Shown: positions 9,211 through 21,473 of the stretch, piece after piece
How positions within the stretch are numbered: position 1 is the stretch's first letter
Layout of the letters: each line of letters starts with the position of its first letter
Assembly: GCA_020859995.1 (NCBI GenBank)
Contig: JAJBVE010000154.1
Coordinates: 1 to 32,110, forward strand
DNA length: 32,110 bases
Reading direction: 5' to 3'
Source of the DNA: Clostridiales bacterium
GTDB lineage: Bacteria > Bacillota > Clostridia > Lachnospirales > Lachnospiraceae
The notes under the pieces: model-generated
What the model saw: only the letters and a program-made list of their open reading frames with translations
Database searches by the model: none
Told to the model about the DNA's origin: nothing
Made by a program: the position numbers and the translations under genes

Positions 9211-9800
9211 CAGGCAATCAGGCGGAACCGACAGCAGCCGGAGCAATAATGGAGAGCTGTCGAAGAACAATATAACGATGGAATAAATGAGTTGCCGTCC
9301 TCTCTGCAGACAGGGAGCGGCGGAGTACCACTCTTACTATATATTTATAGATGCTGTATTCACAGTACCTGCTTTTCCGGGAGATTTTCTCACGGAATCG
9401 CTCCAGGTATACGGAGACAGGAGATATGGTTGGGATTTTATTTCGTTGCGATATTGCTTTTAATACCGGCACAGGATCAGGCAGTACAAATCTTCTCTAC
9501 GAACCGCCGGGGAGAGCTGCCGCGCAAGACGGGTCATGCGGAAAGGATCATGCAAAGGTCACAGCGTGTTAAAAACGCAGCGACATCTGATATGGATCTT
9601 TACTGCTCAGAAAATTCTGAAAGAAAAGACACGCGTCATAGCTTAATGAGTCGGAAAGGCTGCCGCAGGGCAGCTGGGCGGCTATGTTCGCCCCAGTTAG
9701 AAACAACATCAGGCAGTACCCGCACAGAAAACACAAAGAGACGGGTACACAGGTGGCAGAGCTAGTACGGAGCTGTCACAGAAAATGGAGGAAGAATTAC
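9211..9800 (+). other. 590-base geneless spacer, possible rpsM leader
   Basis: No convincing gene: the longest open frames here lack ribosome-binding sites and recognisable sequence. Visible structure includes the palindrome TCAGAA-AA-TTCTGA near 9607-9620, a hairpin CTGGG-CG...CG-CCCCAG near 9672-9696, and GTACCCG...CGGGTAC at 9716-9722/9742-9748. The last lies about 50 bases before the rpsM start. I see no clear promoter or T-tract terminator. In E. coli, S4 represses this operon through a leader structure at rpsM; whether this stretch plays that role is inference. Confidence 0.5.
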
Positions 9801-11274: not shown

Positions 11275-12228
11275 GTGTTCGATTTTAACAAACCTAAAAT
11301 TGAAATCGCGGAGATGTCAGAAGATAAACGATTTGGACGATTTGTAGTTGAGCCGCTTGAGCGAGGCTATGGAACGACACTCGGCAATTCCCTGAGAAGA
11401 ATCATGCTTTCTTCTCTGCCGGGCGCAGCCGTGAGTCAGGTCAAAATCGAAGGCGTACTGCATGAATTCAGTTCCATCCCGGGCGTCAAGGAAGATGTGA
11501 CAGAGATTATCATGAATATTAAGTCTCTGGCGATCAAAAACAGCAGCGAGACCAACGAGGCCAAGATCGCGTACATCGAGTTTGAAGGCGAGGGCGTGGT
11601 GACTGGCGCTGATATCCAGGTGGATCAGGATATCGAGATCATGAATCCGGATCAGGTCATCGCGACATTAAACGGCGGACCGGATTCCAGACTTTTCATG
11701 GAATTGACAATCACCAAAGGCCGCGGCTATGTCAGCGCGGAAAAAGGCAAGAGCGAGGATATGCCGATCGGTATGATCGCGGTGGATGCGATTTACACGC
11801 CGGTAGAGCGTGTGAATCTGACCATCGAGGATACGCGTGTCGGTCAGGTGACGGACTATGACAAGCTGACACTGGATGTCTATACCAACGCGACCCTGGC
11901 TCCTGATGAGGCGGTCAGCCTGGCGGCAAAGGTACTGAGCGAGCATCTGGGACTGTTCATCGATCTCTCTGAGAACGCGAAATCCATCGAGGTTATGAAC
12001 GAAAAGGAGAGCGACGAGAAGGTTCTGGAGATGAATATCGACGAGCTGGAACTGTCCGTCCGTTCCTTCAACTGTCTGAAACGCGCCGGTATCAACACGG
12101 TCGAGGAGCTTTGCAGCCGCACATCAGAGGATATGATGAAGGTTCGCAACCTCGGACGCAAGTCTCTGGAGGAAGTCCTTGGCAAGCTGAAAGAGCTCGG
12201 GCTCTCTCTCAATCCGAGCGATGAATAA
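11275..12228 (+). CDS. rpoA: RNA polymerase alpha subunit
   Basis: A 317-residue subunit. The N-terminal domain, used for dimerisation and for binding beta and beta', includes [21 protein letters not shown]; a linker follows near residue 235; the C-terminal domain ([17 protein letters not shown], then [15 protein letters not shown]) contacts upstream promoter DNA and activators. The start is a GTG with AAGGAGGGG upstream. The spacer to rplQ carries the five-hairpin array described at 12236-12418. Confidence 0.98.
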
Positions 12229-12235
12229 ATATTTT

Positions 12236-12418
12236 ACCGCCAGTAAGTCCGAAGCGCATGGCGGTCCGAAAATACCGTCAATAAGTCCGAAGCGCATGGC
12301 GGTCCGAAAATACCGTCAATAAGCCCGAAGCGCATGGCGGTCCGAAACTGCCGTCAGTAAGCCCGAAGCGCATGACGGATCAAGAGCGGTCATCAGTAAG
12401 CCCGAAGAGCATGATGAC
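12236..12418 (+). repeat. Five tandem hairpins with conserved loop, between rpoA and rplQ
   Basis: Units begin at 12236, 12274, 12312, 12350 and 12389; the first four are spaced exactly 38 bases. Each has a 5' arm, a 16-base loop matching RTAAGYCCGAAGMGCA, and a 3' arm complementary to its own 5' arm. Arms are ACCGCCA/TGGCGGT (unit 1), ACCGTCA/TGGCGGT (2 and 3, one G-T pair), CCGTCA/TGACGG (4) and GTCATCA/TGATGAC (5). Units 4 and 5 differ from the rest at several stem positions on both strands at once, so pairing is kept. A linker CCGAAAAT or similar joins the first four. No T-run follows, so these are not plain terminators. Function unknown. Confidence 0.9.
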
Positions 12419-12477
12419 ATATGGCATATAGCTATGGCAATATTAATATATGCCGTAAAACATGGAGGATAATCATC

Positions 12478-13014
12478 ATGGCAAAATATAGAAAACTCAG
12501 CAGAACCTCTTCTCAGAGAAAGGCCCTGCTCCGTGGTCAGGTAACAGCTCTGATTTACAATGGTAAAATCGTGACCACCGAGGCGAAGGCAAGAGAAGTA
12601 CGCAAGATTGCCGAGCATCTGATTGCGCTGGCAGTCAGAGAAAGAGATAATTACGAGACCGTAACGGTTACCGCGAAGGTTGCGCGCAAGGATAAAGACG
12701 GAAAGCGTGTGAAGGAAGTCCAGAACGGCAAGAAAGTTACCGTATACGACGAAGTTCAGAAAGAAATCAAGAAAGACAAGCCGAGCCGTCTGCATGCGCG
12801 TCAGCAGATGCTGAAGGTACTCTATCCGGTAACGGAAGTGCCGAAGGAAGCAGCTGGCAGAAAGAAAAATACCAAGAAAGCAGATCTTCCGGCAAAGCTT
12901 TTCGACGAGATCGCTCCGAAGTACGCGAACCGCAACGGCGGCTATACCCGGATCGTCAAACTCGGACAGCGCCGCGGAGACGGAGCTCCGATAGTGGTAC
13001 TGGAGCTGGTATAA
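12478..13014 (+). CDS. rplQ: Ribosomal protein L17 (long form)
   Basis: A 178-residue L17, a 50S tunnel-exit protein. The N-terminal half, [20 protein letters not shown] through [17 protein letters not shown], and the C-terminal [20 protein letters not shown] are standard. About 55 extra lysine-rich residues (roughly 75-145) sit between them compared with the 115-130 residues usual elsewhere; such longer L17 proteins are familiar in Clostridia. The ATG at 12478 follows ATGGAGGATAATC; an in-frame start at 12421 is rejected. Confidence 0.96.
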
Positions 13015-20500: not shown

Positions 20501-20589
20501 TGTCTGGCACGTTCCTGTATGAGGCGGGCTTCCAAATACATTCTTTCCGGAACGATCAAAGAAAAAGGCAATCTTACGACGGATCATAA
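17521..20589 (+). CDS. Large Cpa-like pilus/surface protein with repeats
   Basis: A 1022-residue exported protein. Signal peptide about 1-37, ending DAAA. Residues about 38-272 are Glu/Ser/Thr/Pro-rich with 12-residue repeats like ESETSAESEPEE. A beta-rich domain spans about 273-435 (GVFPEGASMSVTLLE, EIEPEQGTVTVKMDV). A run of alternating Glu-Thr lies near 538-568. An InlB/Flg_new-type repeat (YVFAGWYDSC...NTVYARWE) is near 808-852. An FctA-type isopeptide domain starts near 855 (VTVVKKVEGNMGDKTQDFHF). The C-terminus has DPDTGVYFDSAPYIAI, a membrane segment and basic residues. It is first in the cluster, where streptococci have Cpa. No cysteine lies outside the signal peptide except one near 821, so a Cys-Gln thioester domain is not apparent. 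Confidence 0.88.
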   Translation: MQDKLLKKYKGRIRSILSILLCMVLLSGVVVLPDAAAEEPISEKNTETSTEIISETEAETESTVSETAAETETGSASPESAVETGVEPVSPESAAETETEPASPPDAPVELETEKNEMEMPAETVTDPTEPESEATPAPEPTEQGRETISVSKPTEPESEATPTPEPTETESEAVPVSALSKSQEAESETSAEFAPEVESETSAESVPESESKTSAESEPEEESETSAESVPEAESETPAESEPEEESEMPAESEPEEDESETATESAEPEYPAATFKAALDAGITVKAAADEGVFPEGASMSVTLLEADNARTASRYSEAEATLEENAVSYDGLIALDISFRAADGTEIEPEQGTVTVKMDVASTLLDEDADLESLTVRHLAETNSGLAVEIVADTGEETAGTIRTDADGGVSTEFTVDSFSYFTLTYNNRTLTIYLVDESGTEILNEGYFLGNENVSYTSWIAIETAAASYIDDAESEGYDYQGAYLGSYRGTTVASIRYYSNRGNSSWQYRSSNTSGGYSIGSSAIYLVFKEKETETETETETETETETETETETETETETETEVDSVGKTITFVYTSQTVLDQTNPDTIKAAKDTVKFTVNLLDANGKLTELPIPSDAVIPASYTSKNSVVLISELLSQISVPGYTLDDGYAFFFWGGNQSVSSGLDLSGAGAHKVTAFKNFDEVSTTYGDGSANLGTTTTTNTFHTIGYTMTELDGSSMIGADWSGDTEGYYAYEYGGVLHIVLKPVSAADAYETRWINYAEPVDTLVDTTDAHDMTYLSSTKTWYGYLTLTSAAYWDGSGLTSPGAGYVFAGWYDSCDANGNGTGNKIAGNEIMYSDNTVYARWELVTMSVTVVKKVEGNMGDKTQDFHFAVTDSGGTPTSFDLKDGEKQTIANLTIGSAITVTESGNDNYDSITIQYGSYDTNDHFVEYKAYTTSVSSSSASITLESGYDVILVTNSRNIDPDTGVYFDSAPYIAILAGVILLGMLLSGTFLYEAGFQIHSFRNDQRKRQSYDGS

Positions 20590-20687
20590 AAGGAAAAGGC
20601 AATCTTATGATAAATCATAAAAGGAAAAGGCAGTCTTACGACAGATCATAAAAGGAAAGGGCAATCTTATGACAGATCATAAAAAGA
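20564..20687 (+). repeat. Four 31-bp tandem repeats spanning a gene junction
   Basis: Units at 20564-20594, 20595-20625, 20626-20656 and 20657-20687 each contain AAAGGCAATCTTA and GATCATAAAAGG. Unit 1 encodes the end of the large surface protein (RKRQSYDGS); unit 4 contains the start codon of the SipA-like gene (MTDHKKKK). Unit 2 carries an equivalent ATG at 20607 that opens a 14-codon reading frame ending TAA at 20649-20651. The unit length is not a multiple of three. Confidence 0.9.
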
Positions 20688-21223
20688 AAAAGGACCACGC
20701 AAATCAGGCGCAGCCTCCTCCGGGCGGGAACAGCGCGGCAGTTCGGAGAGGCTATATCAGCCTGGCGATTCGGGCAGTCTGCCTGTTACTCGCCGGATGG
20801 CTTTTTCTGACGAGGTTCCTGCTGATCACGCAGGCGCCCGATCAGGAAATGTTCCCGTCCATCAAGGCAGGTGATCTGGTGATCGCTTACCGTCTGCAGA
20901 TGACCTACAGTAAGAACGACGTAGTTGTCTACACGGCGGAAGGGAAGCAGAAAATCGGAAGGATCATTGCCGGCGCCGGCGACGTGGTCACGATGGATGA
21001 CACAGGGATCCTGCTGGTAAACGGCACTGTCCAGACCGGGGAGATTTTATTTTCCACCTGTGCGAAAGAGGGGATCACCTATCCCTTCACCGTCCCGGAG
21101 GACTGCGTATTCGTTCTGTGCGACTATCGCACGAACGGTACCGACAGCCGGGATTACGGGGCAATCTCGTTAGAGGATGTGGAAGGCAAAGTGATCACAA
21201 TCCTGAGGAGACGGAGCATCTGA
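20669..21223 (+). CDS. SipA-like signal peptidase homologue, catalytic residues replaced
   Basis: A 184-residue protein with a cytoplasmic Lys-rich N-terminus, a membrane anchor (about 30-54) and a type I signal peptidase fold outside. The box that normally reads S-M-x-P reads E60-M-F-P-S-I-K-A-G-D, so the catalytic Ser is Glu. The box that normally holds the general base Lys reads K-I-G97-R-I-I-A-G-A-G-D, so that Lys is Gly. The third conserved box, DYRTNGTDSRDYGAI, is kept. Streptococcal SipA/LepA of the FCT pilus region shows the same kind of loss and acts as a pilus assembly factor; position between the Cpa-like and FctA-like genes is the same. Likely role: pilus assembly, not peptide cleavage. 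Confidence 0.88.
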   Translation: MTDHKKKKDHANQAQPPPGGNSAAVRRGYISLAIRAVCLLLAGWLFLTRFLLITQAPDQEMFPSIKAGDLVIAYRLQMTYSKNDVVVYTAEGKQKIGRIIAGAGDVVTMDDTGILLVNGTVQTGEILFSTCAKEGITYPFTVPEDCVFVLCDYRTNGTDSRDYGAISLEDVEGKVITILRRRSI

Positions 21224-21373: not shown

Positions 21374-21460
21374 ATCAGAAACGCATAAATATATCAGAGA
21401 CGCATGAATATCAGAAACGCATAAATATCAGAGACGCGTAAATATCAGAAACGCATAAAT
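21374..21460 (+). repeat. Five 17-bp tandem repeats in the leader of the shaft pilin gene
   Basis: Units ATCAGAAACGCATAAAT (21374, 21410, 21444) alternate with ATCAGAGACGCATGAAT (21393) and ATCAGAGACGCGTAAAT (21427); two extra bases follow unit 1. The array ends one base before the ribosome-binding site AGGGAGG. No gene is visible in the 250-base spacer upstream of the pilin. Confidence 0.92.
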
Positions 21461-21473
21461 AAGGGAGGAATTT

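Follow-up and report, generated by a model that had tools for sequence, protein, structure and literature searches.

What is a repeated hairpin doing in a gut bacterium between rpoA and rplQ, two essential genes? How L17 is made in step with ribosomal proteins and yet apart from RNA polymerase alpha is a long-standing question, and the window (the whole stretch of DNA analysed here, 32,110 nucleotides) carries five hairpins in the spacer that separates the stop of rpoA (12228) from the start of rplQ (12478). The earlier note had described five repeats sharing one loop, and this description was borne out: every unit consists of a 6–7-bp stem and the 16-base loop RTAAGYCCGAAGMGCA, which shows 0 mismatches in 5/5 units, and the units start 38, 38, 38 and 39 nucleotides apart (Table 1). 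Tandem Repeats Finder independently reports the array (period 38, 3.8 copies, 93% matches). Covariance model R3, run on the window with its filters off, recovers exactly these five units at 28.0–37.1 bits, the next best hit reaching 10 bits (E 0.62). The paired stem changes read from the letters are likewise present, with C-G, T-G and T-A all occurring at one position and, in unit 5, changes from A-T to G-C, from C-G to T-A and from G-C to A-T. Because units 1–3 are near-identical, the bulk of the covariation evidence comes from relatives.

Table 1. Features of the window around the hairpin array and the evidence for each.
Feature	Position	Strand	Evidence or remark
S4-Clostridia ribosomal protein leader RF03140, upstream of rpsM	9654..9701	+	Rfam match; known leader, same gene cluster
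rpoA (RNA polymerase alpha), upstream gene	11275..12228	+	ORF; tblastn query against relatives
Hairpin unit 1, 7-bp stem, loop 12243-12258	12236..12265	+	Pattern, stem check, R3
Hairpin unit 2, loop 12281-12296, near-identical to unit 1	12274..12303	+	
Hairpin unit 3, loop 12319-12334, near-identical to unit 1	12312..12341	+	
Hairpin unit 4, 6-bp stem, loop 12357-12372	12351..12378	+	Similar unit in G027 (L039)
Hairpin unit 5, loop 12396-12411, closest to rplQ	12389..12418	+	Top R3 score in the window, 37.1 bits
Extra imperfect hairpin, in the interval from unit 5 to the Shine-Dalgarno sequence	12420..12457	+	Folds; seen by eye in G027 and G042 too
Shine-Dalgarno sequence GGAGG of rplQ	12464..12468	+	Sequence
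rplQ (ribosomal protein L17, 178 aa), ATG at 12478, follows the element	12478..13014	+	Pfam PF01196

The element is not scattered in its own genome. The loop has no other exact site in the 4.4-Mb assembly, and the covariance models (strict filters, E ≤ 0.01) find the array alone; 16 other genomic places match the loop pattern with one mismatch (one place) or two, compared with 8 for the reversed pattern. The sole one-mismatch match elsewhere (L006, G000:C205:6151-6166) has no flanking stem by eye. Two more tandem arrays lie at or between ORFs of the window, at 20558-20690 and 21374-21461 (31-bp and 17/34-bp units), and neither has an R3 match.

Plain DNA similarity extends to the genus alone (17/98 genomes). 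Of the 47 genomes sampled in the genus, 42 gave an rplQ match and five gave none; one of the 42, G032, was cut before the spacer, leaving 41 readable rpoA–rplQ spacers. All 41 carry the loop, in one to five copies; in one of them (L067) a loop insertion makes the fixed pattern fail, and the model confirms the hairpin at 32.4 bits. G042 (L040) has two copies, G027 (L039) has three and the window has five; every other spacer has one. By eye, window units 1, 4 and 5 correspond to the three of G027, and unit 1 seems to have been duplicated later to give units 2 and 3; the five copies are a species-level expansion. Over a wider, mixed set, a copy-number detector applied to 204 distinct leaders reported one copy in 122, two in 59, three in 3, five in 1 and none in 19. 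The resulting 185/204 leaders with the element is not a frequency, because the sampling was mixed (40 genus, 42 model-selected, 62 named, 20 rplQ-selected and 40 R1-negative leaders), and 6.5% of shuffled leaders also trigger the detector. It missed two leaders in which the loop is visible by eye (L063 and L143), and both were left out of the 17 leaders counted below as lacking the element. Thus, of the proposal that this is an array of sites, the hairpin stands as conserved, whereas the array itself is not the conserved feature, relatives having mostly one or two copies.

Homologous spacers retain not only the loop but also the pairing. The genus alignment comprises 47 ungapped units, 45 of them distinct, and its 10-bp stem is 87.1% paired; sliding the partner strand by 1–3 bases drops pairing to 20–45%. 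The covariation score was 0.546, against 0.246 in shuffled alignments, and both this score and the paired percentage lay beyond 500/500 shuffles. Eight of the ten pairs change on both sides, one is invariant and one departs by a single unpaired cell; the count of eight is not in itself exceptional, since the shuffled mean was 6.9 and 155/500 shuffles reached it. RNAalifold, unaided, predicts nine of the same pairs. An alignment of named genomes (75 distinct rows) gave 89.3% pairing, a covariation score of 0.648 versus 0.197 in shuffles and both-side changes in 10/10 pairs, a count that 50/500 shuffles match; this alignment was fitted to a covariance model and so leans towards the structure. 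Together, the alignments argue that stem pairing is under selection. Above the drifting stem, the loop core reads GUAAGNCCRA across the leaders examined, its UAA being fixed by the way windows were selected.

Could the repeats instead be a mobile or selfish palindrome, or tandem-repeat slippage without function? The near-identity of units 1–3 speaks for such an origin, and slippage may account for the copy number, but not for the element: the models place it at one genomic location, single copies are conserved in other species, and the stems covary. Nor does it show the many scattered copies of a REP-like sequence, the models and the exact loop alike finding the array alone. We therefore regard this explanation as very improbable.

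We then followed the element through the covariance-model search of Lachnospiraceae that the earlier note had suggested, extended to genomes of the order and class. The element turned up in many genomes, nearly always directly before rplQ. R1 matches 128/397 genomes of the family (Lachnospiraceae). R2 matches 31/295 genomes of the order, 29 from the family itself and one each from families f17 (G623) and f11 (G652), and 8/291 genomes of the class, seven from the family and one outside it (G975). The third model, R3, matches 80/344 genomes of the order: 61 from the family, 18 from its sister family f17 and 1 from f11. Named species with the element include Agathobacter rectalis, Roseburia inulinivorans and Hungatella hathewayi. 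Of 85 loci fetched for model matches and checked for context, the window's own (L083) among them, 83 directly precede rplQ (30/30, 21/22 and 32/33, the last two sets being L110–L131 and L309–L341). The two exceptions, in G975 (L131) and G652 (L333), are weak matches outside both families with no rplQ nearby, and we counted them as false positives. All confirmed matches from the runs over family, order and class genomes fall in Lachnospirales. In f17, 17 of the 18 R3 matches were fetched and all are rplQ leaders; for the remaining one (G075), coordinates and sequence place the match some 50 nt ahead of rplQ.

The tie to rplQ also holds when the search starts from the gene. In 81 rplQ loci (the best 80 listed plus A. 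rectalis), R2 matches 74, and 84/84 of its matches fall in the 250 nt preceding rplQ, with none elsewhere in the 278,720 bases of these loci. Twenty of the same 81 (the best 80 listed plus A. rectalis) share a leader with the loci used to train R2; among the other 61, 54 match. By eye, three of the seven R2-negative loci of the 81 (L266, L287 and L298) hold diverged copies and four (L271, L285, L294 and L299) are without a convincing one. Forty R1-negative leaders of the family, hand-picked from the top of the score-ordered rplQ matches listed, divide into 25 that match R3 and 15 that do not, the latter mostly short plain spacers by eye; the element thus seems dispensable in those 15 and is not universal in the family. 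Among 20 leaders from other families of the order, the f17 leaders L216, L221 and L223, and perhaps L214, carry the motif by eye, and it was not seen by eye in the other 16. R2 finds nothing significant in these 20 leaders and is therefore too narrow for f17, which R3 reaches.

Two observations concern leaders from other families of the order. In f17 (L322–L339 except L333), the hairpin appears by eye to be enclosed by another, outer helix, the arms of which also seem to covary. Four rplQ leaders of family f8 (L208, L220, L222 and L224) share, by eye, other stretches around AAGACCGGG and CGTCAAAT-like words, which perhaps represent a separate leader.

The spacing between the element and the rplQ start is also narrow in most leaders. 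Among the 185 element-bearing leaders, 145 have 17–23 nt between the end of the last loop and the Shine-Dalgarno sequence, with 9 having a shorter distance and 31 a longer one; the window, at 52 nt, belongs to the latter. In many relatives the stem runs straight into UUCCA-CAAA-UGGAG, whose helix would cover the Shine-Dalgarno sequence. Such a helix (score of at least 9) is possible in 56.2% of the 185 leaders with the element versus 15.7% of shuffles, and in 0/17 leaders without the element versus 7.3% of their shuffles. Its commonest 5' sides, UUCCA, UUCCG, CUCCA and CUCCG, all pair with UGGAG, and the length of its loop varies. We did not find the helix in 66/185 leaders with the element, the window species included (L038, score 0); that species has another hairpin (12420-12457) between unit 5 and the Shine-Dalgarno sequence.

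A covarying stem, a constant loop, a single downstream gene and, in most leaders, a tight spacing to the initiation site together form the pattern of a ribosomal-protein leader. Structure supported by covariation, and a same-strand position directly upstream of a ribosomal-protein gene, are features by which such leaders are recognized, and both were found here. The comparative evidence thus supports the view that this is a selected RNA hairpin with a conserved loop, tied to rplQ, and that the loop is probably recognized. The element is, on this evidence, a real and conserved RNA and a candidate ribosomal-protein leader, undescribed as far as we searched and unusual in this species for its repetition. 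The suggestion that a ribosomal protein is the likeliest partner fits these data; the alternative partner named with it, a Rho cofactor, fared less well, because rho sits downstream of rplQ in the window but has no tie to the element.

We infer, with a probability of roughly 0.5, that the element is an internal leader of the alpha operon: a ribosomal protein, L17 being the likeliest, would use it to repress rplQ independently of rpoA. Each hairpin would present the conserved loop, with its GUAAGNCCRA core, atop a variable stem. Excess ribosomal protein, most likely L17 itself, would bind the hairpin closest to rplQ and, by its bulk, block the start of ribosomes on rplQ, leaving rpoA unaffected. 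In many relatives, the bound protein would also hold the adjoining short helix over the Shine-Dalgarno sequence, and further upstream copies may allow more or tighter binding. L17 is the first candidate because the ligand of a leader is, as a rule, encoded by a gene under its control (as stated in the portion of PMC7247131 available to us) and because no other ribosomal-protein gene was seen downstream: by eye, the ORFs of the window include none after rplQ, and none adjoins rplQ in A. rectalis. S4, for its part, already has its own leader upstream of rpsM in this gene cluster (RF03140).

S4 nevertheless deserves consideration as the ligand. The hairpin would then give the alpha operon another S4 site, placed before rplQ, that shuts off L17 and spares alpha. 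In E. coli, rplQ but not rpoA is repressed by S4 (according to the available part of PMC10931766), and a conserved GUAA in a Firmicutes S4 leader mimics rRNA (as described in the available part of PMC7247131), the loop here containing GUAAG; in A. rectalis, moreover, rpsD lies just upstream of rpoA. These two parallels, the repression of E. coli rplQ and the GUAA features of some S4 leaders, are why we rank S4 second. Yet GUAA is four bases only, the loop has no match above chance in E. coli 16S rRNA, and the S4-Clostridia leader at 9654-9701 has no R3 match even with filters off, its sequence being without the loop. We consider S4 a possible ligand, though a distinctly less probable one than L17.

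Leaders that mimic the rRNA site of their ligand might have betrayed its identity, and our scans, which judge mimicry at the level of primary sequence alone, gave no such lead. The best loop-profile match in the 23S rRNA of the window's own genome scored 7.6, a value reached by 57% of shuffles; the best match in E. coli 23S was reached by 83% of shuffles and that in E. coli 16S by 27%. The 16S comparison used E. coli, as no 16S gene turned up in either the window's assembly or that of G026. R2 found nothing significant on rRNA (best E 1.7). Two candidates were rejected. The loop as a copy of 23S helix H101, near which bL19 and 'bL14' (as printed) are placed in the part of PMC6389949 available to us, was dropped, as the rRNA scans yielded no match better than chance. 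A 10-base identity, CAGUAAGACC, between the loops of relatives and the window genome's own 23S near its 3' end (L079, 3145-3158) scored 7.6 versus a shuffled mean of 8.2. We found no usable list of L17 contacts on 23S rRNA in the open literature.

The lack of mimicry in 23S and in E. coli 16S rRNA speaks for another kind of partner for the loop: a small molecule, a small RNA or an RNA-binding protein from outside the ribosome. In the available text of PMC7247131, the authors allow that some RNAs controlling ribosomal-protein genes may bind no ribosomal protein. Against this, the tie to rplQ holds in two families, and one would expect further sites if the partner were a general RNA-binding protein; a partner of this kind seems to us improbable.

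A further alternative is that the hairpins act in RNA processing or stability, being cut or shielding RNA ends, so that the rpoA and rplQ messages are separated and decay differently. The intercistronic position, between genes that possibly need different amounts of product, would suit such a role, as would the freely drifting stem sequence and the variable copy number. The conserved loop and, in most leaders, the narrow distance to the initiation site point instead to recognition linked to initiation rather than to a generic stem, and no terminator-like site is present (0 intrinsic terminators at 12100-12520). We judge a processing or stability signal unlikely.

How the five units behave together bears on the role of the copies. 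Single units are not unusually stable (z of -0.6 to -2.0), and the whole spacer is moderately so (z of -2.1, equalled by 3/200 shuffles). In an unrestricted fold, unit 5 forms its own hairpin with a probability of at least 0.93, and units 1–4 form theirs with probabilities of 0.03–0.19, competing with cross-pairing between neighbours. With all five stems formed together and the rest free, the predicted energy is -67.1 kcal/mol; the optimum, in which arms from different units pair with one another, reaches -70.5 (a gap of about 3.4 kcal/mol). Restricting pairs to 45 nt gives the five-hairpin form. These folds raise the somewhat speculative idea of a modular, copy-number-tuned regulator, in which slippage would add or lose hairpins and cross-pairing between neighbours would make the L17 response cooperative and switch-like. 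If so, one bound protein would favour the loop-displaying register in neighbouring units. The copy numbers observed across leaders are 1, 2, 3 and 5. We hold this model to be unlikely as a whole; the repeat array offers a natural series of one to five sites for a single regulator.

To place the element among known systems, we searched Rfam 15, in which no family matches the array or 10 relatives, and the open-access literature, where our searches brought up no paper describing an rplQ leader for Lachnospiraceae; rplQ, L17 and rpoA gave no hit in PMC6429828 or PMC2965389. The nearest precedents come from Eckert and Weinberg (2020), who, in the part of PMC7247131 available to us, predict an L17 leader in Actinobacteria and Proteobacteria and an S4 leader in Clostridia. 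That L17 leader is likewise upstream of rplQ, with L17 as the sole regulated ribosomal-protein gene (PMC7247131, same part), but it belongs to other phyla and is set apart from the element here by lineage, not by alignment. For the rplQ spacer of one alphaproteobacterium (Shinella, L206), neither R2 (at significance) nor Rfam returned a match, and it was unusable as a reference. The S4-Clostridia leader RF03140 shares the gene cluster and the presumed logic of the element but differs in place and sequence and has no R3 match; conversely, 12236-12418 falls below its Rfam gathering score. L17DE (L17 downstream element), described in the available portion of PMC7247131 as an RNA adjoining L17 genes and restricted to Firmicutes, sits downstream of the L17 gene, whereas the element here lies upstream of rplQ and has no Rfam match.

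A functional parallel is the S4 repression of rplQ in E. coli, in which, in the excerpts of PMC10931766 that we have, L17 is likewise controlled apart from alpha at the rpoA–rplQ junction. The second S4 site before E. coli rplQ was proposed there without strong evidence; it belongs to another phylum, and those excerpts give no structure for it. For Bacilli, the same excerpts term the control of alpha-operon ribosomal-protein genes unknown. With an element this compact and conserved, in a family common in the gut, the question of whether L17 or S4 binds becomes directly testable.

The 178 aa of the window's L17 protein include a long insertion relative to the 97-position Pfam domain, which residues 17-178 match; L17 of C. 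difficile has 113 aa. Relatives matching positions 1-178 occur in many other families of the order, so the insertion in L17 is more widely distributed than the RNA element.
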